A DNA stretch of 64,000 nucleotides. Origin: an uncultured Glaciecola sp. Lineage in GTDB: Bacteria; Pseudomonadota; Gammaproteobacteria; Enterobacterales; Alteromonadaceae. The position numbers were made by a program, and so were the translations under genes. Shown in pieces: positions 5,805 through 61,199 of the stretch (position 1 is the stretch's first letter; each line of letters begins with the position of its first letter). The stretch covers positions 227,869 to 291,868 of the forward strand of contig CANMCE010000006.1 in NCBI GenBank assembly GCA_947496235.1, read 5' to 3'. Below the pieces are notes generated by a model. It was not told the DNA's origin and did no database searches. It saw nothing but the letters and a program-made list of their open reading frames with translations.

Positions 5805-5809
5805 GCAAC

Positions 5810-47404: not shown

Positions 47405-47475
47405 TTTGTTCTAGTATCAAACTATTAAAATGGGCTCACAGGTCAGTATCATTCCACCGTGAGCTTAGTTTTATT
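47400..47475 (+). terminator. Two hairpins after the PilZ gene
   Basis: AATAGTTTG (47400-47408) pairs with CAAACTATT (47418-47426) and overlaps the stop codon. GCTCAC (47434-47439) pairs with GTGAGC (47459-47464), followed by TTAGTTTTATTT. The second resembles an intrinsic terminator with a long loop. Confidence 0.5.
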
Positions 47476-47778: not shown

Positions 47779-47780
47779 AT

Positions 47781-47876
47781 GTATAACAATGATTTAGGCT
47801 AAAAGGATATTGGCGATGAACTTGCAGTTGCTTTGTGTATATGCAAGATGTTTGCTAATAAGCTGTTAGGGGCTCT
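47781..47876 (+). other. Weak attC-like site at start of array
   Basis: GTATAAC at 47781-47787 and GTTAGGG near 47869-47875 could be the outer boxes, with an inner inverted repeat CTTGCA/TGCAAG (about 47821-47846). Both boxes deviate from consensus, so this is the weakest site of the series. Confidence 0.35.
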
Positions 47877-47883
47877 TTATCGA

Positions 47884-48279: not shown

Positions 48280-48405
48280 CAAGGGAATTTTATCATTCGC
48301 TGTCGCTCCTTCGGACATTTTGCACTTTTTAAAATCTGCTTTTCGCTTCGTTCAATTTTCGCAGATTTTAACACCTACAAACTGCCGTAAATGCAGGCGT
48401 TAGAA
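48274..48405 (+). other. attC-like recombination site 1
   Basis: Left box CCCTAAC (48274-48280) and right box GTTAGAA (48399-48405) are complementary at the ends, and each fits the attC consensus (RYYYAAC / GTTRRRY) at six of seven positions. Between them AAAATCTGC (48331-48339) pairs perfectly with GCAGATTTT (48361-48369). The overall imperfect palindrome of 132 bases is typical for attC sites. Confidence 0.65.
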
Positions 48406-48411
48406 GCCAAT

Positions 48412-48960
48412 ATGAATATTGTAGAATACCGTGAGCTTGTACAAGACCTGTTATTTGAGCCATTAGCGGCAATCGGATTTCAAATGAAGGGTGATCACAT
48501 TTATTTGAGAGAAAATGGCAATTGTCTAGCCTTGTTAAGAGTTAAAGATAAATGGTCTAACATCACTCAGCAGGTCAAGTATCTATTAGTTGTCCGGCAA
48601 GAATTTCTGCCTGATTTGGAAGAAAGAGAAATAACTGAATTTGTTGATCATCCTGCTTTGTATCCATTCAAAGCAAATCCTTTGAAATTGGATAACTTTC
48701 AAAGGGGGGTGTTTAAAAAGAAAATTGTATACAAATACCGAAGCTGTAACTTGGGGCATTACGATACGGCGAATATAAATTATGGAGAAGAAGATCCAAG
48801 TTGCATTCTCCAAACAATAGCATCCGAAGTGGCGACCAAGGGTGTTGAATGGTTTCATAGTCTAACTCCCAGCATGTCTGCGAAACAGATAAGGAAATAT
48901 GGCAACAAAGAGTACATTGAAGAAATCTGGGATAGAGCATATGCAAAAAATGGCTTCTAA
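48412..48960 (+). CDS. Cassette-type protein, DUF4304-like
   Basis: 182 residues from the ATG at 48412, directly after the recombination box; an ATG at 48391 would start inside the site. The N-terminal part (EPLAAIGFQMKGDHIYLRENGNCLALLRV) resembles DUF4304-type proteins, which begin with a similar helix, GF and strand pattern, often found on mobile elements. That is a tentative match. It has no signal peptide or membrane segment. Its stop overlaps the next attC-like site. Confidence 0.45.
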   Translation: MNIVEYRELVQDLLFEPLAAIGFQMKGDHIYLRENGNCLALLRVKDKWSNITQQVKYLLVVRQEFLPDLEEREITEFVDHPALYPFKANPLKLDNFQRGVFKKKIVYKYRSCNLGHYDTANINYGEEDPSCILQTIASEVATKGVEWFHSLTPSMSAKQIRKYGNKEYIEEIWDRAYAKNGF

Positions 48961-49050
48961 TAAACGGGTCAAATTCGCTCTCTTTTGTCGCAAGGACGCG
49001 CAAAATGCCCGCTTGCTTTACCCTGCTAAATAATTGTTGAAGCGTTATGT
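48955..49050 (+). other. attC-like recombination site 2
   Basis: Left box TTCTAAT (48955-48961, one step away from the AAC core) and right box GTTATGT (49044-49050) flank a 96-base imperfect palindrome (GGGTCAAA on the left against TTTACCC on the right). The left box contains the stop of the preceding gene. The box degeneracy lowers confidence. Confidence 0.5.
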
Positions 49051-49065
49051 TCTTCAGGGGTTAAC

Positions 49066-49437
49066 TTGAAAGTAATTAAAGCTAAGTTAAATACCGAGCC
49101 TTATCACTCACTCAGCATTAAGGACGTAAAATATATTCTGGGGCTCGTGCCTGAGCACTGGTATCGAAATGTGAATAAAATAGTCCTTAGCTCTACTCAT
49201 TTTAATAAGTCACGATTCGACAGACCTGTTTTTGGACACGCCGCACTATTAGATATAAATATATTGTCTAGGGGGTTTACTAGGCAGGAAATAGCGAAGG
49301 AATTTCTCAGAGAATTGGCAGTTTTAGGTAGAGTCTCTCAAACACAGAGCTTCAATCACATCCCCAAAAAAGAGTTAAAAAAGATTGATGAAGTAATTGA
49401 GCCATTTTTACAGGAGTTTTTGAATGCCAGAACATAA
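49066..49437 (+). CDS. Cassette-type protein of unknown function
   Basis: 123 residues starting at a TTG with AGGGG 5 bases upstream; no ATG is available near the cassette border. It is basic and soluble (LGLVPEHWYRNVNKIVLSS, then GFTRQEIAKEFLRELAVLG). I recognise no family. The stop TAA (49435-49437) sits in the ACATAACAAG box of the following site. Gene size and spacing match the neighbouring cassettes. Confidence 0.45.
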   Translation: MKVIKAKLNTEPYHSLSIKDVKYILGLVPEHWYRNVNKIVLSSTHFNKSRFDRPVFGHAALLDINILSRGFTRQEIAKEFLRELAVLGRVSQTQSFNHIPKKELKKIDEVIEPFLQEFLNART

Positions 49438-49509
49438 CAAGTGACTATGGTGTTAAGTCAATTAATCGAGATTATCAGGGCAGGACATTATTGAAGCATT
49501 AGGTTACGA
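49432..49509 (+). other. attC-like recombination site 3
   Basis: Left box ACATAAC (49432-49438) includes the preceding stop codon; the right box is weak (GTTACGA, 49503-49509). The first 48 bases (49435-49482) agree with site 4 (49807-49854) at 40 of 48 positions, showing that the two sites are related although the genes between them are not. Confidence 0.5.
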
Positions 49510-49512
49510 AAA

Positions 49513-49809
49513 ATGGGAACCGAATTAATTTACATTTCTAACGTTACTACTCCCGCAATCTTTTTTGTATATTTTCTATTATTGTTCAAAGGCATGTTTC
49601 CGAATCCCAGAGCTGTTATTGCATTGATTATAAATACCACGTGGATGCTTTCATTCTTGATATCAGGAGTTATCGATGGCGATTTGTATTTAAGCTATCT
49701 ATATGGAGGATTTTTCTTAATCATCTTTCAGATAGTCGTTTTAATTATTGTCTGGTTATTTGGTATTCAACTTGGCAAGTTCATAGGGCTAAGTAAGCAT
49801 ACAACCTAA
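49513..49809 (+). CDS. Small membrane protein of unknown function (cassette)
   Basis: 98 residues with three predicted membrane helices: about 8-32 (TTPAIFFVYFLLLFKGMF), 34-55 (ALIINTTWMLSFLISGV) and 62-90 (YGGFFLIIFQIVVLIIVWLFGIQ). The start ATG follows the presumed recombination box by 3 bases. No family is recognised. Small integral membrane proteins are common integron cassette products. Its stop TAA is inside ACCTAAC of site 4. Confidence 0.55.
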   Translation: MGTELIYISNVTTPAIFFVYFLLLFKGMFPNPRAVIALIINTTWMLSFLISGVIDGDLYLSYLYGGFFLIIFQIVVLIIVWLFGIQLGKFIGLSKHTT

Positions 49810-49920
49810 CAAGCGACTATGGTACCAAATCAATTAATGGAGATTATAAGTGCATGCCATGCCACTTGCATTCGCAAATGTCACACCATACTCTGCTAAC
49901 TCATTATTGTGGTGTTATAT
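49804..49920 (+). other. attC-like recombination site 4
   Basis: Left box ACCTAAC (49804-49810) matches RYYYAAC exactly; right box GTTATAT (49914-49920) fits at six of seven positions. The left 48 bases are homologous to site 3. The right box overlaps the stop of the reversed ccdB gene. Confidence 0.6.
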
Positions 49921-50232
49921 GCCGGTAAATAATAGATCGATTGCTGAAATTACTTCAAATCTGAAAGCATTAACATTATCTACTTTTGAGGATAAAAATG
50001 ATTCTGGTACAGTTGTTATTTGATGGGTTAAAAGGACATAATCTTTTCCCTTGATTTGTATTATCGGGCAGAGTTTTTTTGCATCTCTATGCTTTATTGA
50101 ACCTGGTGAGGAAAAAGGTATTACAACTCTTGAATTGAGTTCGTCGAGTAAATCGTTTTGTACATTCAAAAAATAAGGGTAAGTTTTCTTTGTAGCCTTA
50201 TCTTTGTTTAAGTAAACCGTAAACTGACTCAT
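49915..50232 (-). CDS. ccdB: CcdB family toxin
   Basis: 105 residues aligning over their length with CcdB, the gyrase-poisoning toxin: FTVYLNKD, VQNDLLDELNSRVVIPF, LCPIIQIKGKDYVLLTHQITTVPESFL and the ending AIDLLFTGI. In F-plasmid CcdB the last three residues W-G-I contact gyrase; here Trp is replaced by Thr, so the strength of gyrase poisoning is uncertain. Its start overlaps the antitoxin stop by one base (TAATG). The operon runs against the direction of the cassette array. Confidence 0.9.
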   Translation of the reverse strand: MSQFTVYLNKDKATKKTYPYFLNVQNDLLDELNSRVVIPFSSPGSIKHRDAKKLCPIIQIKGKDYVLLTHQITTVPESFLSSKVDNVNAFRFEVISAIDLLFTGI

Positions 50233-50477
50233 TAGAACTCACGGAAAGAGTCAGAGAAAAGGCCATGTTTTTCTGTTAACTCATTTAACGCCTCAATGGC
50301 ATCTCGGTTTTCGTTTTTCCAATTTTCGCGCTCAGTTTGGCGTAGTTGATGGACCAATGCGCGTTCGAGAGTTGCGGAAAGGTTGATTTTATTTTTCCGA
50401 GCTTTAGTTAGTAAATCACTGTTTATACTCAAGTTTGTTGGTTTCTTGGGGGCTTTTAAATCATAAAGCTGAGGCAT
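50232..50477 (-). CDS. ccdA: CcdA family antitoxin
   Basis: 81 residues. The N-terminal half (KKPTNLSINSDLLTKARKNKINLSATLERAL) is a ribbon-helix-helix DNA-binding domain; the C-terminal half (RENWKNENRDAIEALNELTEKHGLFSDSFREF) is the disordered toxin-binding tail, ending with the F/W-type residues of CcdA. AGGAG lies about 10 bases upstream of the ATG. It neutralises CcdB and should repress its own promoter. Confidence 0.9.
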   Translation of the reverse strand: MPQLYDLKAPKKPTNLSINSDLLTKARKNKINLSATLERALVHQLRQTERENWKNENRDAIEALNELTEKHGLFSDSFREF

Positions 50478-50499
50478 TATGGCTTGCTCCTAACAGTTA

Positions 50500-50531
50500 A
50501 TGCGTATAAGTTATGCGTATAATGTTGTCAC
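50500..50531 (-). promoter_or_regulatory. ccdAB promoter/operator with tandem repeats
   Basis: The minus strand has TTATACGCAT twice in tandem about 25-45 bases upstream of ccdA, and on the same strand GTGACA followed after 17 bases by TATACG could be a promoter. Repeats of this kind fit autoregulation by a ribbon-helix-helix antitoxin. A promoter of its own would let the reversed cassette be expressed. Confidence 0.5.
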
Positions 50532-50544
50532 AATATCAGGAAGC

Positions 50545-50622
50545 GTAAAACAAGGCAAATCACTCGGATGCCAAAACATCCGCTCTGCATTGGTTTCGCC
50601 ATCGGCGTTTGCGGCGTTAAAC
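50545..50622 (+). other. attC-like recombination site 5
   Basis: Left box GTAAAAC (50545-50551) is followed by AAGGCAAAT, and the right box GTTAAAC (50616-50622) matches GTTRRRY exactly. CGGATG/CATCCG in between form a hairpin, and GGCAAAT...GTTTGC extend the outer symmetry. At 78 bases it is a compact attC-like palindrome. Confidence 0.6.
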
Positions 50623-50653
50623 CCTTTCCACAAGATTAAATGGATGTATTCAA

Positions 50654-50734
50654 ATGAAAAAAATACTAATTGCTCTTATTTCTCTGTCTGATCTTCCCCT
50701 AAAACACAAAGAATTGCCGAAATGGACAAGCTAA
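50654..50734 (+). pseudogene. Possible remnant gene, 26 residues
   Basis: A short frame MKKILIALISLSDLPLKHKE... begins like a signal peptide and stops after 26 residues. It stands where a cassette gene would start after site 5, so it may be a truncated secreted-protein gene. No ribosome-binding site is evident. CTAACAAGG next to GTTATTA at about 50768-50782 could be a collapsed attC site. Confidence 0.3.
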
Positions 50735-50781
50735 ATGAATTATTACATTCCACACTCGTTTGAGGGGCTAACAAGGTTATT

Positions 50782-51278
50782 ATGAAGAAATCCAGTATAC
50801 TTTTTTTAATACTTCTTATTAGTGGTTGTTTTGATTGGTATGAAGTGCCTACATTTTCGATGGAACCTACGATTATGTCTGGAGGCAAGATCAAAATTGA
50901 AGAAGACTATTATGATACCAACCGTATTCAGAGGTTTGGTATCGTTGGCCATATAGTTCCCAGTAACAATTTATTTCAAGCTAAAAGAATTATTGGGTTG
51001 AGGAAACTATAGAAATTAAAAATGGAGTAATCTTGATAGATGGACAAAACTTAGATGAACCTTATGAGTTTGATAAAATAAAAATGGATTATGGACCTGT
51101 AGTTATTCCAAAAAATCACTATTTTCTGTTAGGAGATAACCGAAACCAAAGTAATGATAGTCGCTACTGGGGAACGCTACCTCTAGAGTCCATAAGAGGA
51201 AAAGTGGTGGAAATTAAGAATCCACGAAAATACATTATGAAAACGAAGCCGCATAGGAAAGTCAACTCAATAGATTAA
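50782..51278 (+). pseudogene. Frameshifted signal peptidase I (S26 family)
   Basis: The first frame (50782-51014) gives a lipoprotein-like N-terminus (ILLISGCFDWYEV), then the catalytic-Ser motif PTFSMEPTI and AKRIIGL, and stops at once. The second frame, open from 51003, continues exactly where the family should go on: ETIEIKNGVILIDGQNLDEPY and then GDNRNQSNDSRYWGTLP. So one ancestral gene has been split by a frameshift near 51000. Four bases are probably missing there, between GGGTTG and GAAACT. The general-base lysine is in the first part. No slippery heptamer is visible, so programmed frameshifting is not supported. Confidence 0.8.
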
Positions 51279-51308
51279 AAGAGGATTTTACGGATTTTCA
51301 GACCTCCT

Positions 51309-51350
51309 CAGATAGGCCACAATAATATGGCTACTATCTGTTTATAATTT
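51309..51350 (+). terminator. Hairpin after signal peptidase pseudogene
   Basis: CAGATAG-GCCA (51309-51319) pairs with TGGC-TA-CTATCTG (51328-51340), one bulge, followed by TTTATAATTTATTTT. It looks like a rho-independent terminator. Confidence 0.6.
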
Positions 51351-51378
51351 ATTTTGAATAAATGAGCGAATAGAACTT

Positions 51379-51654
51379 ATGGATTTAGTTGAATTAGGTG
51401 AAGCAAGCGACAGTGAATATGATCGCGAACATACTTGCGTTGAGAATGAGTTCCCTAAATTTGATCGCATAATTCACTGTGTTAAAGCCAATGATGAACC
51501 TCTTAATATATGGCAAATACACGGTATTCATTATGCGGTGGAAGAAGAAGTGAAATTGGGAGAGGCTGACTACGTAGGGCAAGTCACTTACCACAGCGTG
51601 ATTTCAATAAATTATTGTCCGTTTTGCGGAGCAAATTTAGTAAATGACGCATAG
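51379..51654 (+). CDS. Small protein with C-terminal CxxC (unknown)
   Basis: 91 residues, acidic N-terminus. Near the C-terminus NYCPFCGANL is a single Cys-x-x-Cys knuckle; other cysteines at 20 and 34 could complete a zinc site. No family is recognised. The ATG lacks a strong ribosome-binding site. It lies between the signal-peptidase pseudogene and the HicB-like gene, in the presumed decayed part of the cassette region. Confidence 0.45.
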   Translation: MDLVELGEASDSEYDREHTCVENEFPKFDRIIHCVKANDEPLNIWQIHGIHYAVEEEVKLGEADYVGQVTYHSVISINYCPFCGANLVNDA

Positions 51655-51778
51655 AGTTGGGCTTAAGAGCATTAAAAATTCTCTGTACATCATAAAGAGT
51701 GTCCACAAACTCTGGTAAGAATGCTGTAATGTTAACTAGTTAGTTTGAGCATAAGCGCGCTATCGAGGAGTCAAAAAA

Positions 51779-52006
51779 ATGAAAGATTCGGATAGATATA
51801 TAAAAATTGTCGAATGGTCAGAAGATGACAATTGCTATGTGGGTTCTAGTCCCGGACGAATGCTTGCTGGTTGTCATGGAGATGATCAGAGAAAGGTTTT
51901 TGACGAACTTTGCTTAGTTATAGAAGATACAATAGCCCTCTACAAAACTGATAACAAGCCTTTGCCGTCACCTACGTCAGGCAGAGACTGGACTAATGTT
52001 GCATAA
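51779..52006 (+). CDS. Orphan HicB-like protein
   Basis: 75 residues with the partial RNase H-like fold of the HicB antitoxin family: RYIKIVEWSEDDNCYVGSSPG, then HGDDQRKVFDELCLVIEDTIALYKTDNKPLP. GAGGAG lies 9 bases before the ATG. No DNA-binding domain is attached and no hicA toxin gene lies on either side, so it is an orphan, a frequent finding in integron cassettes. The stop TAA is inside GCATAACAAGG, which resembles an attC left box. Confidence 0.65.
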   Translation: MKDSDRYIKIVEWSEDDNCYVGSSPGRMLAGCHGDDQRKVFDELCLVIEDTIALYKTDNKPLPSPTSGRDWTNVA

Positions 52007-52018
52007 CAAGGAGGTAGT

Positions 52019-52357
52019 TTGGAGAAGGAAATTGCAGTACGGATGTTGGAACAAGTTGCCCGTAATTTGACGGCTATTGAGAACTTATCTAGAGTTCTAG
52101 GTCTCCTTACTGAGATCAAAGATAGGAAATTGTACACTCCAATGCTGAAAGAATTGCTTAGCAGTAATTTTGAGTTGCAACACGAGATTGGGCGGATTTA
52201 TAACGATTTAGACCCTATGTATCTGGGCTTGGAGGAGTTTACTTTGATGCGTAAAAAATTTGAGGACCCAGAAAATCCAATTCCAATGCCAACACAAAAG
52301 GATATCGAAAATGCTAAACGGTCCTGGGAGAGAATTAGTAGGATGCTTAAAAAGTAG
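52019..52357 (+). CDS. Helical protein of unknown function
   Basis: 112 residues from a TTG preceded by AAGGAGG at 5 bases, an excellent ribosome-binding site. Almost entirely helical (EIAVRMLEQVARNLTAIENLSRVLG ... LKELLSSNFELQHEIGRIYNDL). No signal peptide or membrane segment. I recognise no family. It starts 12 bases after the HicB-like gene in the same direction, so the two could be co-expressed, but it is not a HicA toxin. Confidence 0.5.
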   Translation: MEKEIAVRMLEQVARNLTAIENLSRVLGLLTEIKDRKLYTPMLKELLSSNFELQHEIGRIYNDLDPMYLGLEEFTLMRKKFEDPENPIPMPTQKDIENAKRSWERISRMLKK

Positions 52358-52699
52358 AAAGTTTACATACCAAAAGCCTAAAGACGAAAATTGGTAAGAG
52401 CGGCCAGCTCCGCTTAAATTAGTGTTTTAAGCCAAGGGACAATGCATTGCGGTATTTCATACCGCTACTAATTTATAATTGTACCCTCAGAAAACTCATA
52501 TAAACTGCTTCTCAAACGAATAGATATGGTGTCATTGAAAATTTCGCCAGAACTTCCTATTCAAAAGTGGATTAAGGAAACGATGATGGATGGGAGCCTT
52601 TAATTAGGGCTTCCATAGGGAATTTGGAAAATTAACGCCAAAAAGTTAAGTACTTGTTCCTATGTAATAGTGCTGTAGACAAATCAAGGAAGTTGATTG
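52358..52699. other. Intergenic region with hairpins and a gene remnant
   Basis: This 342-base gap has a perfect 7-pair hairpin with a 3-base loop, GCGGTAT (52449-52455) / ATACCGC (52459-52465), probably a terminator of the preceding genes, and a short one AGCGG/CCGCT (52399-52414). A 25-residue frame (52526-52603) is discussed separately. No other gene is visible. Confidence 0.4.
52526..52603 (+). pseudogene. Possible TlpA-like redoxin remnant
   Basis: A 25-residue frame containing LKISPELPIQKWIK, which resembles the beginning of TlpA/AhpC-TSA redoxins (usually ...PAPxLxxxxWxKG). It then ends at a TAA. If real, it is the N-terminal stump of a lost gene. The match is short, so this is only a suggestion. 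Confidence 0.25.
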
Positions 52700-52948
52700 A
52701 TGTTGATTTATTGGGTCGTAATTGGTTTTTTCACCATATTAAATCTCTATGTCAGTGTCCTTTTAATACGAAGGGATGATTTAGAACAAATACAAAAAAT
52801 ACTGCAAATATTACTTGTCTGGTTAATTCCATTGTTAGGCGCAATTGGAATTTGGCTACTTATCAAAAGCCAAGATGATGATGACAATAATAAACCCAGT
52901 AAACCTTCGTTTGGTGGCGGGGCGAATGACAGCATCGGGGCGCAATGA
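52700..52948 (+). CDS. Small two-helix membrane protein
   Basis: 82 residues from the ATG at 52700, with AAGGA 8 bases upstream. Two membrane helices (about 3-23 and 32-55: ILLVWLIPLLGAIGIWLLI) are followed by a charged tail (QDDDDNNKPSKPS). The pattern W-x-x-P-x-x-G-A between helices resembles the phospholipase D N-terminal membrane domain seen as stand-alone proteins. The same frame continues after the TGA for 31 more codons to 53044. Confidence 0.5.
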   Translation: MLIYWVVIGFFTILNLYVSVLLIRRDDLEQIQKILQILLVWLIPLLGAIGIWLLIKSQDDDDNNKPSKPSFGGGANDSIGAQ

Positions 52949-53136
52949 TTATTATATGGTTCGATTCCAGATAACTACGAGCGCATGCAACTAGAACTCG
53001 TGCGTTTGTTAAAGTCTAAAGTGCCGCGCTATATAAATTTGTAATCAGCGAATAGATTTTCAATTAGTTTTTTACAATAAATTAGCTCATTGACCGGTCG
53101 TTGTAATTGATGATTAAAATAATTCAAAGGACTTTT

Positions 53137-53415
53137 ATGTTTGTATTTGCAACGATAACGCCGAAAAAACAATTCTTCGAAAATGCTAAACAAGCTATTT
53201 TAGGTATTCTTGATCAAACCAGAGATGAGCCGGGATGTATTCAGTTCGAACTACATGAAAATAGTGAAGAGGGTAAACTCTTTTTATATGAACAGTGGCA
53301 AGATGAAAATGCACTGACGTTGCATTATCAACAGCCTTACACTGCACACGTATTTGAACAATACGAACAATGGTTACAAATACCCGTTGACGTAGTTAAA
53401 ATGGATAAATGCTAA
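53137..53415 (+). CDS. Putative quinol / antibiotic biosynthesis monooxygenase (ABM domain)
   Basis: 92 residues from the ATG at 53137, which has AAGGA 6 bases upstream; an earlier TTG is not supported. One ABM ferredoxin-like domain: FATITPKKQFFENAKQAILGILDQTRDEPGCIQFEL-style opening, ENSEEGKLFLYEQW and the C-terminal helix. Such small enzymes dimerise and act on quinols or reactive carbonyls without a cofactor. The substrate is unknown. It begins a rightward series of small, unrelated enzyme genes. Confidence 0.8.
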   Translation: MFVFATITPKKQFFENAKQAILGILDQTRDEPGCIQFELHENSEEGKLFLYEQWQDENALTLHYQQPYTAHVFEQYEQWLQIPVDVVKMDKC

Positions 53416-53472
53416 GAACTTTAACCTGTAAATACTATAGGTTTGATGCGTTACAAAGGAATGTAATACGAA

Positions 53473-53934
53473 ATGAAAGTTTATCTTTTTGATTGGGGGG
53501 ACACCCTAATGGTTGATTTCCCAAACGGCAAAGGAAAGATGTGCGATTGGGAAACAGTTCAAGCGGTAGAGGGTGCAAAAGAGTTACTGCAACGCTTGTC
53601 GTCAGATGACAAAATTTATATTGCTACTGGCGCGGCTGAATCATCAGAGTCTGACATCAAAGCAGCGTTTGAACGCGTAGGCTTAGACCGCTTTATTAGC
53701 GGCTACTTTTGTAAGGCTAATCTAGGCATCTCAAAAGGTTCACCGGAATTCTTGCGAAGCATATTAGATAAACTCAATGTTACACCCGAATGCGTTTTCA
53801 TGGTGGGGGATAGCTATGAAAAAGATATTGTTCCAGCGCTAGCAATTGGCATACAAGCAATATGGCTGTCGCCAAGTACCACTCAAGCACCTTTTGATAA
53901 CGTTCGCATTATCAAATCACTTCGAGAAATGTGA
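53473..53934 (+). CDS. HAD-superfamily hydrolase
   Basis: 153 residues. Motif I reads FDWGDTL, with the nucleophile Asp7 but Gly in place of the usual second Asp (D-x-D), followed by Asp at the next position; this variant is known among HAD proteins. Motif II is in IYIATGAA, the motif III lysine in GISKGSPEFL, and motif IV is VGDSYEKDI. There is almost no cap domain (C0/C1 minimal). A small-molecule phosphatase is likely. AAGGA lies about 13 bases upstream of the ATG. Confidence 0.85.
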   Translation: MKVYLFDWGDTLMVDFPNGKGKMCDWETVQAVEGAKELLQRLSSDDKIYIATGAAESSESDIKAAFERVGLDRFISGYFCKANLGISKGSPEFLRSILDKLNVTPECVFMVGDSYEKDIVPALAIGIQAIWLSPSTTQAPFDNVRIIKSLREM

Positions 53935-53973
53935 AACTATGTTGTATCAATTAAAAAAAGGCGAGTCTTATAA

Positions 53974-55245
53974 ATGAAGCAAATCGTTATTTTATTCTTC
54001 TTAGCGCTAAGTTTTACTTATTTCAGTGCCAAAGCCGCAACTCCCGAGCAAATTAAAATCGCAAAAACAGAGTATCCAACACAGATCCTATATAAACTTT
54101 GGCAGGACCATCAAAACGATCCCAATGCAGCACTAAGATTTTACAACACACTTGATCAAAAACACCTTATCGAGGTCAGTAGTGATGCTCCTAATACAGC
54201 CACCGTGACGTATTTTGCCAAGGGGAGTGAGGATACCGACTACATTATGCAATCAGGTGGTCCTGACTTTTATGGCTTGAGGTTCAAACAAATAGGTAAC
54301 ACTGACATTTATTTTTGTGTCCAAAAAATTCCAACTGATGCCTTTTTCACTTATGGCGTAAATGAATTTAAACGCAAAAAAGTGGAAGGAACGGAACAAC
54401 TATACCAAACCGATATGGCGCATATTTACGATGGAACGGTAATAGGGCCACAAGCACCTTTATCTAACTATATCGTTAATCATAAGAATGTGGCCAAAGG
54501 GATTATTAAGGAGGTCATCATCGAGAGTGAATACATGGATGAAAAGCGCAAGCTTGAAGTGTATTTGCCCGCTAACTATAACCCAGCGCATGCCCATAAC
54601 TTAGTTATTCAATTGGATGGACAAAACTTTTCAGCAGATGCAGAACAAGCTCCAGCTTGGCGAGGTTGGACGCCATTACCAACTATTTTAGATAACCTGA
54701 TCAATGAGGATAAAATTACACCCACTATTGCAGTGTTTGTTCACAATCAAGGTAATCGCTCAAAAGATCTGATTGATGATAGAATGGCAGATTTTATCGC
54801 CCTTGAGGTTTTGCCATGGGCAAAAAGTAATTTCAACGTTTCATCTGACAATAAACATATTGTGCTTTCAGGGCCAAGCCGAGCAGGGTTTACCGCTGCA
54901 TACACTGCGCTACGTCACTCAGAACTTATCGGTTCCGTGCTTTCTCAATCTGGTTCCTTTTATTACACCAAGTCTGACAAGTCGAATTGGCCTATTTATC
55001 CGGAATTTGAAGGTGTTTTAATTCCTGGTTATAAAGATGCTCCAACTCAAAATATCCAGTTTTATCTCGATGTTGGCTTGTATGATCTTGGTTTGGCCGC
55101 AGTAGGAACAAATCGTCGCTTGAAGGACATTCTTCAGCTTAAAGGCTACAAAGTTGAATATTACGAATATAAAGGTGGGCATTCTCATTTGGCCTGGCGT
55201 CATACACTCGCTAAGGGGTTGATTACGCTAATTGGTAACAAGTGA
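53974..55245 (+). CDS. Secreted enterochelin-esterase-like hydrolase
   Basis: 423 residues. A signal peptide (to AKAA, about residue 22) is followed by an N-terminal Ig-like domain (80-190) and an alpha/beta hydrolase of the Fes/IroE (esterase D) class: KRKLEVYLPANYNP, VIQLDGQNFSAD, nucleophile elbow SGPSRAGFTAAY, and GGHSHLAWRHTLAKGL with the catalytic His. Relatives cleave siderophore esters, but no siderophore gene is nearby, so the substrate remains open. It lies 39 bases after the HAD gene in the same direction. Confidence 0.85.
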   Translation: MKQIVILFFLALSFTYFSAKAATPEQIKIAKTEYPTQILYKLWQDHQNDPNAALRFYNTLDQKHLIEVSSDAPNTATVTYFAKGSEDTDYIMQSGGPDFYGLRFKQIGNTDIYFCVQKIPTDAFFTYGVNEFKRKKVEGTEQLYQTDMAHIYDGTVIGPQAPLSNYIVNHKNVAKGIIKEVIIESEYMDEKRKLEVYLPANYNPAHAHNLVIQLDGQNFSADAEQAPAWRGWTPLPTILDNLINEDKITPTIAVFVHNQGNRSKDLIDDRMADFIALEVLPWAKSNFNVSSDNKHIVLSGPSRAGFTAAYTALRHSELIGSVLSQSGSFYYTKSDKSNWPIYPEFEGVLIPGYKDAPTQNIQFYLDVGLYDLGLAAVGTNRRLKDILQLKGYKVEYYEYKGGHSHLAWRHTLAKGLITLIGNK

Positions 55246-55447
55246 TTTAGTAAGCATTAAAATGACGGATAAAATTGTCCATAAATTAAACTTTAGGTAG
55301 TTGTAAATCTGAATTAAGCGTGTAAATTTAAAAGTTGGTCGTTTGTTTATCAACAGTTCCTCGTCAAATATTTGAAGTTAACAACATGGAAAGTGAAGTT
55401 TACCTGAACAAACCTCAACCAAAGTTAATTACATAAGGAAATAAGGC

Positions 55448-55828
55448 ATGACCAGAGTAACTGGAATAGGAGGCGTTTTTATTAAAGCTAAAGCGCCCGA
55501 AGTATTGCAAAATTGGTATAAAACGCATCTTGGCATTGATGTACAAGTTTGGGGTGGAACATTCTTTAAATGGGTTGATAGTGAAGGCAAGCCCTACGCT
55601 GGCTCAACCGCGTGGATGGTTGGTAAAGGTGAGAACTTTGCACCTAGTGAATCCTCTTTTATGGTGAACTATCGAGTTGCGGATCTGAATCAATTATTGA
55701 GCGCGCTGCGCGCAGAAGGCTGCAATGTATTAGACGAAACCGACGAATCTGAATTCGGAAAATTCGGTTGGTTTATGGACCCTGAAGGAAACAAAGTAGA
55801 ACTTTGGGAGCCGCCTGTTGGCGAATAG
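55448..55828 (+). CDS. VOC family protein (glyoxalase/dioxygenase fold)
   Basis: 126 residues with two beta-alpha-beta-beta-beta modules: GGVFIKAKAPEVLQNWYKTHLGI, then FMVNYRVADLNQLLSALRAEGCNVL and GKFGWFMDPEGNKVELWEPP, the usual VOC ending with the metal Glu. It could be a lyase, isomerase or binding protein for small molecules or antibiotics. ATAAGGAAATAAGG precedes the ATG. A 202-base gap separates it from the esterase gene, so it probably has its own promoter. Confidence 0.88.
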   Translation: MTRVTGIGGVFIKAKAPEVLQNWYKTHLGIDVQVWGGTFFKWVDSEGKPYAGSTAWMVGKGENFAPSESSFMVNYRVADLNQLLSALRAEGCNVLDETDESEFGKFGWFMDPEGNKVELWEPPVGE

Positions 55829-55929
55829 AATTTGCCGACATTCAGCTATTTGAAGGCTAGAGAGTAATTAGCCATTGGTTAACACTTTAAAATAAGCTCA
55901 ACCGTTTTAATTGGAATGAAGTACTGATT

Positions 55930-58900
55930 ATGGAAAACCCGCAGAAGAAATATAAAGCTTTTATCAGTTATTCGCAAAAGGATAAACGTTGGGCTGCAAA
56001 AATTCATAGTTGGCTTGAGTCATACCGAGTGCCTGCTGGCGCTCTTATTCAAATCCAAAGCAATAGACGATTAGGCAAATTTTTCCGCGATGATGATGAA
56101 ATGTCAGCGTCATCGGATCTTGCATCAGCACTTAAAGAAGCCTTAATAAATTCAGAAAATTTAATAGTCATTTGTTCTCCTAATTCAGCAAAATCTGAGT
56201 GGGTGGATGCTGAAATTAGGCACTTTAGAGAAACCGGTAGAGCAGACAATATTTTCGCAATAATTGTTTCTGGTGAACCCAACTCTACGGACCCCAATAG
56301 CGAGTGTTTTCCACCAAGCTTACGTGCTTATGAAGAAGAAGAGGGCATTATGCCCATTGAGCCACTCGCCATTGATTTACTGAAAGATGGTAAAAGCAGG
56401 GCTTGTACGCGCTTGGCTGCTGGCCTGTTAAAAATTGACTTTGACGATTTATGGCGACGCGAACAGCGCAGAAAAACTAAACAATTAATAGGTTGGGCTT
56501 TATTAGTATTTTCCGTGCTAATGATTTATGCCGTGATTTTGGCTTACCAAACTCGCTTGTTTAATGGTGATAAGGCTCAGTTTTTTGGCCAAATGGCTGA
56601 GTTACAAAATGCTGCTGTAGATAGTGGCAATGATGAAGATAAAGGGCAATACGATAGAGCGCTTAGGTTTGGCGTTGTGGCCACAAGAGAAGGAATACTC
56701 GATCCAGTAACAAATAAGTCTCAAGATGAACTTGTTAAAACCTTGCATAGCATGCCGGATGCGATGCAATTAAATAGTCCTGATAGACTCATTGGGAATG
56801 TTGCGCTAAGCCATGGACGGACCAAACTCGCCATGGTAGAGCTCGACGTACAAGGCGACATACTGATAGTTGATCTTAACGATTTTAAAATAATTGAACG
56901 CATTACTCATGGATTAAGCGCGAAAATTCGGGGCGTCACCTGGCACCCGACGAGAAATTGGTTAGGTCTATTTGATGACGAAGGTGTTACTTACATCTTA
57001 GATTTAGATGCACGTAAAGTTATTTTTAAAACGCCATCAATAGGGCAAACAATTCTAACGACTTCCTTTTCCGACAACGGGCAATATTTGTTAATTCGAG
57101 GTTGGAGCTCATATCAAGTTTGGGAGCTGGCAACGGGTAAATTAGTTGACCGCTTATCAAACCCTAAATTTAGTAGTATGGACGTTGCTTGGGTTCCTTG
57201 GTCGACAAATATTGCAGTGTTGCCCATCTTAAAAGAGTATGGATCAAAACAGTCCCTAAGAATTCGTGATGTGGTTGAAAAAAAGGATCTTCTTACATTG
57301 GGTGGAGATGCTTCTTCAATAAGCACTTTTTCTTTACCACCTTCAGGCAAGGGCTTAATGATTCATGAACGCTTGGGTAACGAATATAGCGAATACGCTT
57401 ATAAAATAGCCTATGTTGATTTGCCCAGTGGCGAAAGGAAATTAGAAACTTCTGTCGATGATATTTATAATTTTTTGGGATTAGAAGCTAACGATAGGGG
57501 CGGTTTGGCCGGCATTGTATCCAAGGACAAAGAGCTACATTTTTATGAATTTACCTCAGGTAATAAGGTTAAACATTGGCAGGTTGATTTTGCTGATGGC
57601 AACGTCCCAGCGCTGTTGAGTCATACCGGAAGTAATGAATCTGTGTTGATTGGGTCTGAAAATGGCGTCATTCGGCTTTACAGTAAAATGTCCAATGATA
57701 AGCCTTTACTTAAAATTCAAGCCCATAACGGACAGGGCCTGAACAAGCTAATTCTCACCAATGCTCAAGACAAGCTTATATCACACGGCAGTGACGGTAA
57801 TGTTATGGTGTGGGACATAAAGGGTTACGATAATCTGGTCCATAAAGCACCACTGAATGGTATGGTGAATGGATTTATTAAAAGCTTACAATTCAATCAT
57901 AATAGGTCAGCTGTACTGGCATTAAATGAAGGTTCCATTGGTGTTATGGGGTTACCGGTAAAAACATCAGTGCCTGAAAGACTCATTCAACCTTTTGAAT
58001 CTAAATCATTGTTTACCTTGCCAACTCATATGCGTTCGCAATTTAAAATTCTTGATGGGTATTTTACCGACGACAAAAACAATGTGCGATTTATCGTAAA
58101 TAACGGTGAAATAATTGAGGTTCCCATCATTGGTGATAAAAAACTTTCTACTATTGAGCATATTCCAGAAGTAATTGATATTGCAAAAGCTAACACGGAC
58201 AAAGTTGTGATGGCGGTAGCGACCAAAGGTGGCGTTTATACTATTGATGGGGAAAATATAGCACTGTTAACGTCTTCAGATCCTGAAACCATACCCTACA
58301 CTAAAGTAGCCGTAAGTCCAGATGGTAAGTTTATAGCTGCGGGCACCGAAGATGGTCAAGTTAGGCTTTGGTCGCTGGCAAATCGCAATTTACTCAATAC
58401 GTTTAAGCTTGATTCAGCTAGCAACGTCAAACTCCTATCGTTTACCCCATCTTCACAATACTTATTTGTAGGTGGGCCAAGAAAGGGGGCAAAGCTATTT
58501 CATCTACCCGATGGTGATCCCGTCAATATTGATGCTGTAAATGAACGTTTTTGGACTATCGACTACATAACCTATTCGCCAAATGGTAAGCTCGCTTTGA
58601 TTCAGGGTTCTAACAATAACACCCTGGTTTTGCATGCCGAATATGGCATATTTGACCTAAATGAAAATCAATTACAGCCAGATGGTTGGCGTTTTGGTTC
58701 GTCGGAAAAAACGGCTTTTCTTAACGATGATCGCGTTATGTATATGATTCCGCAAGGAGAACAAAAGCTAGTTATTTGTTCTATCAGCAGTTTGGTGTGC
58801 TTGGCGCGCAAACACAATTTAAGATATTTTACATCTGGCGCTTTGTTTGATGACGATCAAGATATCATGATCGTAGATAATTTTGGTGGGTTATTATTTT

Positions 58901-59895
58901 GGAGTGTGGGTTGGTTAGTTGATGACAATGTCAGACAAAACCTGTGCTCTGGCATCATAGATCCAAATTTACTGATAGTAACTGATGAAGATGTCAGACA
59001 AGCACCTATGTTGGTGAATCATTTAGGTCAAAATGTGTGTGACATCAATGCTCCTTGGTATGAAAGATTTTTCTCGTCATCCAAACCAAAACCCTTCGTT
59101 TCTATTGCGGCACACACCCCTGATGATTATTTGAATTCAATTGAGAATTTTGCGACTGCAGATAATCCAACAAGTAAAATTTTGCGGCAATATCTTAGTG
59201 AGTTTGAATTTAAGGCTTTAGACAAAATAAATGGGTCTGCTGAGATAAGAGCACAATTACTTCAAGCAACGGGTTACATAGAAGGGATTGGTGTACCAAA
59301 AGATTTTGATAAAGCTGAGGAAATTCTAAAGGCACTGGTTAAGCAAGAGAATTCAATAGCGCAGTTTAATTTGGCTATGGCATTAACTCTCAAACAGGAT
59401 AAACGATCAGCAATTAATCCTGAAGAGCAGGAAATTCAAAAGTTAATAGCGGCATCTGCTCAACAAGGTTTTTGGGCGGCAAACCAATTTTTAGGGGTTA
59501 ACGCCTATCAAAATGAAAATTTTGACCAAGCCAGGAAGTATTTTAAACAGGCCGTCGAAAATGGTGATAAAAACTCCATGCATTGGCAAGCCTTGGTAGC
59601 AGAAGCTATAAATGACAAGCCTGAATTACCATCAATTAATGCTTGTGAGTTACATAGGCAAGCTGCTATAGCAGGTGCAGGGAAAAGTTTAATGCCTTTT
59701 TTGAAATGTATTGAATCAGGTGTATTAACGACAAAATTAACTCATCAGCAACTTATGGCAATGCTCAAATTTTACGGCTTTCAAGATAATGAACCAAAAG
59801 TTCGTCAACAGGCACAAAGTCTATTTTATAGGTATATAGATCCCTTGGTGATGACGCCAAAATTATTAAATGATGTTGTTGTATCTAAAGATTAG
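55930..59895 (+). CDS. TIR domain protein with membrane helix, WD40 propeller and Sel1 repeats
   Basis: 1321 residues. Residues 6-130 are a TIR domain: YKAFISYSQKDKRWA, an LGKFFRDDDEMSASSDL loop and SEWVDAEI, which fits the S-x-W-x-x-x-E helix where Glu95 would be the NADase residue. One membrane helix follows (about 186-207, GWALLVFSVLMIYAVILAY). Residues about 280-1010 are WD40-like blades (HPTRNWLGLFDDEGV, HGSDGNVMVWDI, SPDGKFIAAGTEDGQVRLW). The C-terminal part (about 1110-1240) is Sel1/TPR-like (GYIEGIGVPKDFDKAEEIL). So a cytoplasmic TIR is tethered to a membrane and a presumably periplasmic sensor. Defence or stress signalling is an inference. Confidence 0.88.
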   Translation: MENPQKKYKAFISYSQKDKRWAAKIHSWLESYRVPAGALIQIQSNRRLGKFFRDDDEMSASSDLASALKEALINSENLIVICSPNSAKSEWVDAEIRHFRETGRADNIFAIIVSGEPNSTDPNSECFPPSLRAYEEEEGIMPIEPLAIDLLKDGKSRACTRLAAGLLKIDFDDLWRREQRRKTKQLIGWALLVFSVLMIYAVILAYQTRLFNGDKAQFFGQMAELQNAAVDSGNDEDKGQYDRALRFGVVATREGILDPVTNKSQDELVKTLHSMPDAMQLNSPDRLIGNVALSHGRTKLAMVELDVQGDILIVDLNDFKIIERITHGLSAKIRGVTWHPTRNWLGLFDDEGVTYILDLDARKVIFKTPSIGQTILTTSFSDNGQYLLIRGWSSYQVWELATGKLVDRLSNPKFSSMDVAWVPWSTNIAVLPILKEYGSKQSLRIRDVVEKKDLLTLGGDASSISTFSLPPSGKGLMIHERLGNEYSEYAYKIAYVDLPSGERKLETSVDDIYNFLGLEANDRGGLAGIVSKDKELHFYEFTSGNKVKHWQVDFADGNVPALLSHTGSNESVLIGSENGVIRLYSKMSNDKPLLKIQAHNGQGLNKLILTNAQDKLISHGSDGNVMVWDIKGYDNLVHKAPLNGMVNGFIKSLQFNHNRSAVLALNEGSIGVMGLPVKTSVPERLIQPFESKSLFTLPTHMRSQFKILDGYFTDDKNNVRFIVNNGEIIEVPIIGDKKLSTIEHIPEVIDIAKANTDKVVMAVATKGGVYTIDGENIALLTSSDPETIPYTKVAVSPDGKFIAAGTEDGQVRLWSLANRNLLNTFKLDSASNVKLLSFTPSSQYLFVGGPRKGAKLFHLPDGDPVNIDAVNERFWTIDYITYSPNGKLALIQGSNNNTLVLHAEYGIFDLNENQLQPDGWRFGSSEKTAFLNDDRVMYMIPQGEQKLVICSISSLVCLARKHNLRYFTSGALFDDDQDIMIVDNFGGLLFWSVGWLVDDNVRQNLCSGIIDPNLLIVTDEDVRQAPMLVNHLGQNVCDINAPWYERFFSSSKPKPFVSIAAHTPDDYLNSIENFATADNPTSKILRQYLSEFEFKALDKINGSAEIRAQLLQATGYIEGIGVPKDFDKAEEILKALVKQENSIAQFNLAMALTLKQDKRSAINPEEQEIQKLIAASAQQGFWAANQFLGVNAYQNENFDQARKYFKQAVENGDKNSMHWQALVAEAINDKPELPSINACELHRQAAIAGAGKSLMPFLKCIESGVLTTKLTHQQLMAMLKFYGFQDNEPKVRQQAQSLFYRYIDPLVMTPKLLNDVVVSKD

Positions 59896-60030
59896 TTAAG
59901 CGGTTTTAACCACTTCATTTAGGAAATCTACTAAACGTTCTTAGGTGTTTGAAGTGGCAAGTTTCACTGTACTCATTTAATAAAGAAATAGAGAATTACT
60001 TAAATAGTTTCAACGTTAGGAAAATAACGA
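59896..60030 (+). other. Gap with hairpin between TIR gene and ATPase gene
   Basis: CCACTTCA (59910-59917) and TGAAGTGG (59950-59957) form an 8-pair stem with a 32-base loop and no T-tract. Whether it separates or joins the transcripts of the flanking genes is unclear. TTAGGA (60016-60021) is the ATPase ribosome-binding site. Confidence 0.35.
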
Positions 60031-60789
60031 ATGGATGCATTACCGTATTTACAAAAAGTAAAACTCAAACGAGAAAAAATCTTCTCTTTTGACGCTTATC
60101 TATTCTCTATACCTGCGGTACGAGAGCTTTATGAAATAGATTTTTCCAAAGAGGTCACGATTCTTGTTGGTGAAAATGGCTCGGGTAAATCAACTCTTTT
60201 AGAAGCAATTGCTGTAGCAATGGGATTTAACGCAGAGGGTGGGTCCAAAAACTTTAATTTCCAAACACGAAAAACGCATTCTGATTTATTTGAATACCTA
60301 TTGCTTTCAAAATCGTTTAAAAGGTATAAAGACGGCTTTTTCCTACGAGCCGAAAGTTTTTACAATGTCGCAACTAATATAGATGAGATGGATGAAGGGT
60401 TTTCTAAAACACCTATGCTGAAAGACTCTTATGGAGGAAAGTCTTTGCATCATCAATCTCACGGCGAGTCCTTTCTTGCACTTATGGTTAATAGGTTTGG
60501 CGGGAATGGGCTATACATTTTAGATGAACCGGAAGCTGCGTTGTCTCCATCACGGCAATTAGCTGTGTTAAGTAGGATGTATCAATTAATTGAACTGCAA
60601 TCTCAATTCATAATTGCTACACATTCTCCCATTCTAATGGCTTACCCAAATGCAAAAATATACCAAGTAAGCTCGAATGGTATTGAACCAGTCAAGTATG
60701 AAGAAACCGAACATTATGAAATAACTAGAGCTTTTTCAAATAACCCTCAACCCATGCTTAAAGAATTATTTAGAGAAGACAGTGTTTAA
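60031..60789 (+). CDS. AAA family ATPase (ABC-like, COG3910-type)
   Basis: 252 residues, a single ABC-like ATP-binding domain without transmembrane part. Walker A GENGSGKST (47-55), a signature-like SHGES (143-147), Walker B LYILDEPE (161-168) and H-loop ATHSP (His198). This fits the predicted ATPases of the AAA_21/SMC-like class, stand-alone ATPases found in phage-defence and other accessory loci. It lies 135 bases after the TIR gene and 15 bases before the DUF5329 gene. Confidence 0.9.
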   Translation: MDALPYLQKVKLKREKIFSFDAYLFSIPAVRELYEIDFSKEVTILVGENGSGKSTLLEAIAVAMGFNAEGGSKNFNFQTRKTHSDLFEYLLLSKSFKRYKDGFFLRAESFYNVATNIDEMDEGFSKTPMLKDSYGGKSLHHQSHGESFLALMVNRFGGNGLYILDEPEAALSPSRQLAVLSRMYQLIELQSQFIIATHSPILMAYPNAKIYQVSSNGIEPVKYEETEHYEITRAFSNNPQPMLKELFREDSV

Positions 60790-60804
60790 AAATAGGAAAA
60801 TTCT

Positions 60805-61161
60805 GTGAAAAAGTACTTATTTTCGTTATTGATTTCTCTTTTTAGCATATCAGCGATAGCGAACACAGACAGTTTAGACGAAATAAATCACCTATTATCT
60901 TTTGTAGAAAATACTAATTGTAAGTATGAACGAAATGGCAAAATCCATACGGGTGCAGAGGCGGTTGAACATATTAAGAAAAAATATGATTACTACAAAG
61001 ATGATATTGTTACTGCGGAAGATTTTGTGAAATATGCCGCAACTAAAAGCAAGATGTCAGGAAAATTTTATTGGGTGCAATGTGATTCAAACTCTCGAAT
61101 TAAAAGCAAAGATTGGCTGTTAAGAGAATTACATCACTTTAGTCAAATAGACACAGATTAG
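60805..61161 (+). CDS. DUF5329 family secreted protein
   Basis: 118 residues from a GTG with AGGA 7 bases upstream. A signal peptide (to AIA-N, about residue 19) is followed by INHLLSFVENTNCKYERNGKIHTGAEAVEHIKKKYDYYK-type sequence, TAEDFVKYAATKSKMSGKFYWVQC, and two cysteines that could form a disulfide, all as in DUF5329. The function is unknown; the protein is probably periplasmic. It lies 15 bases after the ATPase gene, probably in one transcript. Confidence 0.85.
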   Translation: MKKYLFSLLISLFSISAIANTDSLDEINHLLSFVENTNCKYERNGKIHTGAEAVEHIKKKYDYYKDDIVTAEDFVKYAATKSKMSGKFYWVQCDSNSRIKSKDWLLRELHHFSQIDTD

Positions 61162-61187
61162 GCCAGACTTTATTTATCAATCTGGCC
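61161..61187. terminator. Hairpin between DUF5329 gene and rnhA
   Basis: GGCCAGA (61161-61167) pairs with TCTGGCC (61181-61187) across 13 bases at the convergent gene ends; it starts in the DUF5329 stop codon. The T-tract is weak. Confidence 0.5.
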
Positions 61188-61199
61188 AAGAAATTCCCG

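Follow-up and report, generated by a model that had tools for sequence, protein, structure and literature searches.

What does a TIR domain do at the end of a protein laid out like a membrane receptor, and do the genes behind it take part? The question arises from a locus in the window, the 64,000-nucleotide stretch of an uncultured Glaciecola sp. contig that was analysed here. A gene for a 1321-aa protein (positions 55930..59895, + strand, ATG start) joins a TIR domain, a predicted membrane helix, a tandem beta-propeller and helical repeats. It is followed on the same strand by a 252-aa stand-alone ATPase gene of the Pfam AAA_15/AAA_21 type (60031..60789, ATG start) and by a 118-aa DUF5329 gene (60805..61161, GTG start, Pfam 8.5e-29) whose product, judged by eye, likely carries a signal peptide; this gene order, given in a sequence-only reading of the DNA, agrees with the ORF list and Pfam. 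Comparison with genus mates placed the three genes in a variable block of about 13.8 kb (47405..61199, no strand assigned), with a hrpA-type gene and its 100-aa neighbour at one edge and rnhA-dnaQ at the other; the hrpA-type side and rnhA-dnaQ are nearer each other in nine genus mates. Integron-like cassettes are suspected between 47 and 53 kb, on account of ccdAB, a 58-nt repeat and the small size of the genes there, and Rfam gave no match at gathering score from 46.9 to 61.8 kb. The TIR gene is preceded by 101 bp. Since 15 bp separate the ATPase and DUF5329 genes versus 135 bp between the TIR and ATPase genes, the former two may share a transcript to which the TIR gene need not belong.

The TIR domain (residues 8-125, 55951..56304, + strand) was delimited using Pfam, AlphaFold2 and Foldseek. 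Pfam matched the 1321-aa protein to TIR_2 (1.9e-12, residues 11-116) and ThsB_TIR (1.2e-9), and the AlphaFold2 model of residues 1-216 (mean pLDDT 91.2) matched the TIR structures of MAL, AbTir, TLR1, MyD88 and SARM1; Pfam, model and PDB matches together place the domain in the TIR superfamily. The best PADLOC match of this part was weak (2.8e-5, ThsB model). The sequence around residue 95 is WVDAEIRHF, and Glu95 (codon 56212..56214, + strand), the putative catalytic residue, occupies the SxxW(C/V)xxE position of TIR NADases; when aligned to the TIR structure of plant L6, it pairs with the Glu in the SKWCLMEL stretch of that protein. It was invariant in 64/64 homologues and in the 20/20 sequences of a second alignment, the window sequence among them, while the FRDxxE and SxxWVxxE stretches were almost invariant in the 64 homologues. 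The initial observation of a TIR domain with a putative catalytic Glu95 was thus borne out, and so was one of the two conditions on which the initial interpretation had been staked, conservation of the catalytic residues across the family. A Glu is aligned at this position in TLR2 as well, whose TIR domain is not known to be an NADase, and Glu95 therefore does not prove catalysis. From the fold and Glu95 taken together, the TIR domain would likely cleave NAD+.

The TIR domain is prolonged by a linker (residues 126-185, 56305..56484, + strand), defined by conserved columns and the model, with a CFPP motif and an Arg-rich end. Its conserved columns in the homologue alignment are C126, E144, A164, L174 and R177, and in the AlphaFold2 model it runs into a single long helix, 171-215. 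Hydropathy revealed one strongly hydrophobic stretch in the 1321-aa protein, a predicted membrane helix at residues 186-204 (56485..56541, + strand) whose N-terminus, by charge bias, is likely inside: 63/64 homologues showed a Lys/Arg excess on its TIR side. Among 46 non-redundant homologues, 34 had an even number of ectodomain cysteines (P 8e-4 versus one half; 32/44, P 0.002, without two Cys-free homologues) and 12 an odd one; on the TIR side the number was even in 26/46. Charge bias and cysteine parity suggest that the ectodomain may be periplasmic and, together with hydropathy, support the proposed cytoplasmic TIR with one membrane helix as the likely topology.

The beta-strand region that would face the periplasm (residues ~278-992, 56761..58905, + strand) was read from Pfam and the model as tandem WD40-type propellers. 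Many Pfam WD40/beta-propeller models matched, with their best stretches within residues 310-928, and the propeller-type part spans about 700 aa, in agreement with the long propeller region that had been announced. The ectodomain model was weak (mean pLDDT 66, pTM 0.44), and the solved folds closest to this low-confidence model were mostly tandem WD40 proteins. Further on lie a possible disulfide, Cys1006 to Cys1037 (58945..59040, + strand), and C-terminal helical repeats of TPR/Sel1-like type from Pfam and the model (residues ~1064-1315, 59119..59874, + strand). The window protein has six ectodomain cysteines, four of which are retained in the full-length relative P0002: Cys1006 and Cys1037, and Cys1239 and Cys1260 in the C-terminal repeats. 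The earlier assignment of Sel1 repeats held in part: the model displays paired helices at residues ~1064-1315, but Pfam named no Sel1 among the best 25 of 54 families, where the C-terminus matched TPR_16 under the cut-off (1.3e-5).

Among the 120 proteins listed as relatives, only P0002 matched across 98% of the length, the next one reaching 70% coverage, and the N-terminal module of TIR, linker and helix was present in 64/120. The conserved part is the first ~200 residues and the ectodomains attached to it vary. A fixed TIR-linker-helix module with differing ectodomains defines a putative modular receptor family, for which we coin the name membrane-TIR receptor family; the window protein displays all its marks, from the TIR, the CFPP linker and the Arg-rich stretch to the hydrophobic segment around residue 190 and an ectodomain of the variable kind. 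The module occurs in proteobacteria and beyond, and the window's genome encodes two further paralogues of it. When genome contigs were scanned with one sequence no relative turned up, whereas scanning with an alignment gave 20 loci, none full-length. In 147 genomes of the organism's family, searched with thresholds of 1e-10 for the TIR, 1e-60 for the ATPase and 1e-8 for DUF5329, the TIR was patchy (10/147).

A TIR domain, a likely membrane-spanning stretch and a long repeat region together predict a single-gene receptor. With modest confidence we favour a stand-alone inner-membrane TIR receptor, in which periplasmic repeats would sense and the cytoplasmic TIR would cleave NAD+. The repeats would detect a periplasmic ligand or periplasmic damage, the signal presumably entering via the ectodomain; TIR domains may then cluster through the long helix 171-215, which would be the switch, and would cleave NAD+ inside the cytoplasm. 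Downstream, NAD+ loss could lead to growth stop, or a cyclic ADP-ribose-type messenger could be produced, and SLOG-membrane, SLATT, RyR and TPR-S neighbours in some relatives favour the messenger for the family. The window gene itself is an orphan, and any messenger reader would act in trans. Envelope stress or phage defence is the likeliest setting.

SLOG/SLATT systems are reportedly described as nucleotide-sensing by Burroughs in 2015. SLOG-membrane, SLATT and RyR proteins are kinds linked to reading NAD-derived messengers, and TPR-S is a suspected one. A gene of these four sorts lay no more than two genes from the TIR gene in at least 10 of the 32 loci examined, a post hoc count made by hand with neighbours scanned and domain sorts picked after inspection, and with loci partly dependent on each other (L018 and L020 from one genus; L071 and L073 from one family and alike in gene order), so that we give no weight to a chance estimate based on it. 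SLOG-membrane and TIR genes co-occurred in 4/147 genomes (TIR 10, SLOG 7, P 3.6e-4), a count biased by an SLOG query taken from G014 (P 0.003 with G014 removed, P 0.18 with the three loci that made up the SLOG alignment removed), and in 3/369 genomes of a sample excluding the query source (TIR 9, SLOG 6, P 1.9e-4). SLATT_1 overlapped weakly with TIR (2/8 genomes, P 0.09); TPR-S, with 23 places listed over cut-off, showed no overlap by genome (2/22 versus 1.5 expected, P 0.46). RyR, SLATT and TPR-S neighbours were seen in individual loci. We take the membrane proteins to be SLOG proteins from their GITGHRxL and GADR motifs; they matched no PDB sequence, that of L018 matched no Pfam family, and Pfam support was weak elsewhere (DNA_processg_A in L019, YAcAr/SLATT in L116 and L120). 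SLATT_1 was under the Pfam cut-off in L112 and, in L025, just under it in one scan and over it in another. The window gene had none of the four sorts as a neighbour among the proteins scanned, and its own genome gave no SLOG-membrane and no SLATT_1 match.

Could the reader then be a channel elsewhere in the same genome? A cyclic ADP-ribose-type messenger might be read in trans by the two RCK-RyR (TrkA_N-RyR) channel-like proteins encoded there, a possibility that we consider unlikely. A TrkA_N-RyR protein adjoins a membrane-TIR gene in G127, as does an RyR protein with two membrane-like stretches in Harenicola maris, and three of the six RyR-positive genomes among the 147 also carried the TIR (TIR 10, P 0.004). 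However, both channel-like genes of the window's genome lie within 5 kb of other TIR genes and not near the window gene, and in a second set RyR occurred in 1/8 TIR-positive versus 1/72 TIR-negative genomes (P 0.19). Cyclic ADP-ribose is linked to this same sort of domain in animal ryanodine receptors. A bacterial counterpart of receptor-to-calcium-store signalling, in which membrane TIR receptors would make a cADPR-type messenger that opens RCK channels via RyR or SLOG domains, the window protein feeding the two RCK-RyR proteins in trans, seems to us rather improbable. We recognised no publication on a pairing of membrane TIR and RCK-RyR, in a literature scope made up mostly of journals outside subscription.

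The gene might instead be ordinary cargo of a variable region with no role in defence, acting perhaps in osmotic or envelope signalling of a housekeeping kind. In its favour, both paralogues of the module in the window's genome and several relatives elsewhere lie among housekeeping-like genes, which around some relatives we take to be groEL, uvrB or aroC. Its patchy distribution, its place in a variable block and the defence-type neighbours of other relatives (restriction-modification, OLD/UvrD or ThsB_TIR/SLATT genes) speak against it, and leave it doubtful. The proposed check for enrichment in defence islands gave a mixed picture, some homologues having defence-type neighbours and others housekeeping-like surroundings. 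Residues 1-216 had no relative in 50,697 phage records and a two-pattern scan of viral contigs confirmed none, which means that a defence role is not established; a phage or prophage origin was rejected on the same results. Among plasmids, 23 records matched, none over 80% of the length.

Membership of Thoeris, CBASS, Pycsar and TIR-STAND was rejected. The 16 proteins scanned from 47.8 to 61.7 kb, besides the TIR protein itself, included no ThsA-type effector (SIR2-SLOG, Macro-TM or other) as in Thoeris, and no CD-NTase or nucleotide cyclase as in CBASS or Pycsar; the best 25 of 54 families in the window protein included no STAND/NACHT NTPase as in NLR-like TIR-STAND proteins. Thoeris resembles the present case in a TIR predicted to convert NAD+ to a messenger and in the SLOG-type proteins that adjoin some membrane-TIR relatives, whereas the window TIR is probably anchored in the membrane, carries a large ectodomain and lacks a ThsA at its locus; where Thoeris has SIR2-SLOG, the relatives' neighbours are SLOG-membrane, SLATT or RCK-RyR proteins. 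TIR-STAND and TIR-WD40 defence proteins likewise join a TIR to propeller or TPR repeats, and the same genome carries a TIR-nSTAND1-WD40 gene, but the window protein has a membrane helix and, among its best 25 families, no NTPase domain. SLOG/SLATT systems, presented as nucleotide-sensing in PMC7159879 and PMC9503650, share with membrane-TIR relatives a TIR adjoining SLOG or SLATT membrane proteins; unlike them, the window TIR protein is itself likely a membrane receptor, and an effector is absent at this copy.

The window protein shares with animal Toll-like receptors a single-pass layout, its TIR being placed inside the cell and its repeats probably facing outwards, and Toll-like receptor TIRs ranked high among the matches by solved fold and by profile. 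This likeness would fit a non-enzymatic TIR scaffold as in animal Toll-like receptors, passing on the periplasmic signal through protein contacts. Such a scaffold is distinctly improbable, as Glu95 is invariant and the FRDxxE and SxxWVxxE stretches nearly so, the NADase TIRs L6, AbTir and RUN1 match about as well as those of Toll-like receptors by structure and profile, and no adaptor partner was seen. The window protein also differs in its N-terminal TIR, predicted type II topology, WD40/TPR-type repeats and invariant Glu95 module, and we found no evidence of common descent with Toll-like receptors as a receptor.

Turning to the neighbouring genes, the ATPase is a member of an abundant family (at least 7998 matches). 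Its best 120 relatives listed, itself apart, share 65-79% identity with it and are close to it in length, which marks them as stand-alone proteins; it reached no NCBIfam cut-off and partially matched several unlike PADLOC systems (mad3, best, at 1.4e-20; AriA, PtuA, GajA). A single defence or envelope-stress operon, in which propeller and DUF5329 would sense, the ATPase transmit and the TIR execute, could draw on the shared strand, the close spacing and these PADLOC matches, but is very improbable and largely refuted by co-occurrence, the conserved pairing once expected being absent from the 147 genomes (TIR in 10 and ATPase in 5, with the window's genome as the sole overlap; DUF5329 in 26, joined by the TIR in that genome and in one more, there on different contigs, 2/147), besides the stand-alone ATPase relatives, the variation of the block among genus mates and the 135-bp gap. 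Neither gene is a conserved partner in the genomes sampled, and we rejected a three-gene system.

The stand-alone receptor thus remains our preferred reading. To our knowledge, bacterial TIR defences all sense intracellularly. If this reading is true, a TIR tethered by a membrane helix to sensors that are interchangeable and probably extracytoplasmic would resemble the layout of Toll-like receptors in reversed order, and the SLOG-membrane, SLATT and RCK-RyR neighbours of its relatives would offer a direct and testable link between TIR chemistry and ion channels.

When the frames were re-read, all three open reading frames proposed in the sequence-only reading were found at the positions it had given: the TIR gene at 55930..59895, the ATPase gene at 60031..60789 and the DUF5329 gene at 60805..61161, all on the forward strand. 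Judged by its sequence, the 1321-aa TIR protein is real, rare at full length and organised around a module that occurs in many bacteria, an N-terminal TIR domain with linker and membrane helix. Pfam placed TIR_2 at residues 11-116. Numerous WD40/propeller models also matched, their best stretches falling within residues 310-928, and TPR_16 matched weakly at residues 1189-1222; hydropathy gave one strong membrane stretch (residues 186-204). With 20 aligned sequences as input, AlphaFold2 gave a good model of residues 1-216 (mean pLDDT 91.2), with a TIR fold followed by a single long helix (171-215) containing the hydrophobic stretch. Its Foldseek matches in the PDB were TIR domains, including MAL, AbTir, TLR1, MyD88 and SARM1. 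The model of the ectodomain, the region beyond the helix, was weaker (mean pLDDT 66.4, pTM 0.44), with beta strands at about 278-992 and paired helices at about 1064-1315, and its closest solved folds were for the most part tandem WD40 proteins.

A homologue search with this protein scored at least 7992 candidates, of which 147 passed and 120 were listed. Among the matches listed, protein P0002 was the sole one besides the query whose match spanned 98% of the length, at 32% identity in the search and 34% in the alignment, and the second-best coverage was 70%. The module, called from phmmer matches of residues 1-215 (E < 1e-5, start before residue 20, end after 100), was present in 64 of the 120 matches listed, query included; beyond the helix, module proteins varied, with WD40, TPR or no named domain. 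The putative catalytic Glu95 held up as a conserved residue, being kept in 64/64 module carriers and in 20/20 sequences of a second alignment built from loci. Ten other positions were invariant among the 64 (F11, Y14, E30, P35, F52, L78, V80, G115, P117 and R177), and R53, D54, S83 and S89 were each kept in 63/64. Glu95 aligns with the glutamate of SKWCLMEL in the L6 TIR; because TLR2, in the same search, also has a glutamate at this position, the residue is at best necessary, not sufficient. Lysines and arginines were in excess on the TIR side of the helix in 63/64 homologues. Of 46 non-redundant homologues, 34 had an even number of ectodomain cysteines (P 8e-4 against one half), compared with 26/46 for the TIR side; excluding the two homologues that lack cysteine, the ectodomain figure was 32/44 (P 0.002). 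The window protein has 6 ectodomain cysteines, four of which (1006, 1037, 1239, 1260) are conserved in P0002. Charge bias and cysteine parity together support a predicted periplasmic location of the ectodomain.

The ATPase and DUF5329 genes had been read as partners of the TIR gene in a possible three-gene NADase system sensing envelope stress or phage. Across 147 genomes of the host's family, the TIR query matched in 10 (E 1e-10), the ATPase query in 5 (E 1e-60) and the DUF5329 query in 26 (E 1e-8). TIR and ATPase occurred together in the window's own genome only (1/147); TIR and DUF5329 did so in that genome and in G127, there on separate contigs (2/147). The hypergeometric values, 0.30 and 0.56 respectively, were unremarkable. 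The ATPase has at least 7998 relatives, every candidate scored having matched, and those listed, self excluded, were 65-79% identical and 234-323 aa long. The three-gene system is thus not supported.

These genes lie in a variable block between an hrpA-type gene and rnhA-dnaQ, an interval that we read in nine of twelve other genus genomes. All 9/9 carried a gene of 393-402 aa, RlmI-like to judge by a motif, with no match in the window; a 100-aa gene was also present in 8/9, its frame not being picked up in L051, and G148 (L058) had about 6 kb of other genes. The window holds about 13.8 kb there (47405-61199): ccdAB, small genes, an esterase, a glyoxalase-like gene and the TIR, ATPase and DUF5329 genes. 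The ccdA-ccdB toxin-antitoxin pair lies at 49915-50477. A 58-nt direct repeat, 81% alike (49431-49488 and 49803-49860), starts near TAACAA and may represent cassette-type sites. An 81-aa frame (51033-51278) matched the C-terminal part of signal peptidase S26 only and is fragment-like. GC was 0.396 for the TIR gene versus 0.398 for the window. Identity to the window module was 40-43% for the three closest relatives from the family sample and 45-55% for loci L070-L076 and L082, hosted by Parvularculaceae, Roseibium, other alphaproteobacteria and one gammaproteobacterial MAG; this higher identity outside the family hints that the module may have been transferred.

Defence-type settings of module genes exist and are not the rule. 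The module gene of Sinorhizobium plasmid pK101b lies near a PLD-like match just under the cut-off, an Eco57I methylase and an annotated UvrD, and that of genome G399 near ThsB_TIR, SLATT/DUF4231, an OLD-like TOPRIM ATPase and UvrD. ThsB_TIR with SLATT is found about 8 kb from the module gene in G123, HsdM near that of L076, and a second TIR with nSTAND1 near that of L078. At L016, L017, L070, L074 and L077 the module gene sits among what are presumably housekeeping genes, to judge by their sequences; a Pfam scan found AdoHcyase near that of L070.

TPR-S proteins have a suspected link to NAD-derived messengers. Published accounts tie SLOG (Thoeris ThsA; PMC11204291), SLATT (PMC7159879, PMC9503650) and RyR (PMC13232231) to such messengers. 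Our neighbourhood set comprised 32 distinct module loci, 13 from the family sample (window counted) and 19 others; L111 (apparent duplicate of L082), L080, L081 and L083-L089 (module match absent or distant) and L134 (without annotation) were left out, and contig G094:C6 was not taken in full. By Pfam scans of selected neighbours, where misses are possible, a SLOG-membrane, RyR, SLATT_1 or TPR-S protein lay at most two genes from the TIR gene in at least 10/32 loci, which include the near-relative pairs L018/L020 and L071/L073. The neighbour was SLOG-membrane in L018, L019, L020 and L112, TrkA_N-RyR with a SLOG-like end in L024, a borderline SLATT_1 in L025, and TPR-S in L023, L071 and L073; in L075 (Harenicola maris) a RyR gene with membrane-like stretches follows the membrane TIR gene (L075:9947-14964). 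L018:7674-12731 and L020:4622-9671, from one genus, each present a row of membrane TIR, ion channel and SLOG-membrane genes, the channel assignment (Ion_trans) coming from a scan of L018 only. The gene after TIR in L071:11555-13348 and L073:11380-13170 (Parvularculaceae MAGs) combines TPR-S, MAP3K_TRAF_bd and a guanylate-cyclase-type domain.

At the genome level, SLOG-membrane and TIR occurred together in 4/147 family genomes (TIR 10, SLOG 7; P 3.6e-4), with P 0.003 without the query's source genome and 0.18 without all three alignment source genomes. In a sample without the SLOG alignment sources they met in 3/369 genomes (TIR 9, SLOG 6; P 1.9e-4), adjoining in G412 and on separate contigs in G165 and G504. 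Among the 147 family genomes, TIR was also present in 3 of the 6 that have RyR (P 0.004), in 2 of the 8 with SLATT_1 (P 0.09) and in 2 of the 22 with TPR-S above cut-off (P 0.46); in a second set, drawn from the class sample, RyR was present in 1/8 TIR-positive versus 1/72 TIR-negative genomes (P 0.19). Genome G094 has a TrkA_N-RyR gene followed by a 711-aa SLOG-profile match and a membrane-like 637-aa gene without Pfam match (L129:5894-11686), with a membrane TIR gene about 22 kb away. It also has a tandem pair of TIR-module frames (L021:5461-11913), of which 5461-8607, without Pfam TIR match, is possibly a degenerate partner copy. Small RyR, TPR-S and nSTAND1-WD40 proteins are encoded consecutively in G106 (L130:7183-13858), and in G504 a SLATT gene with a SLOG-profile match precedes a patatin-like phospholipase gene (L120:3813-6393).

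Profile searches of the window's own genome found no match to the SLOG-membrane protein and none to SLATT_1, and the single TPR-S match above cut-off lies on contig C8, far from the window TIR gene. At L016 and L017 this genome carries two more modules. It also encodes two proteins in which N-terminal membrane-like stretches are combined with TrkA_N and RyR domains. The one on C2 (L127:6632-8431) is 1.4 kb from the TIR_2 gene of a 678-aa protein (pair L127:3198-8431), and that on C10 (L128:3728-5626) about 4.9 kb from a TIR_2-nSTAND1-WD40 gene (pair L128:3728-13999). These pairs are the basis, without amounting to a demonstration, for a reading in which a messenger would lead to an RCK-RyR channel, which we hold to be improbable. 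No description of a receptor type like the window's TIR protein was found in the literature searched. We propose that the likely mechanism is NAD+ cleavage set off from the periplasm, and that a messenger would be the favoured output for the membrane-TIR family.
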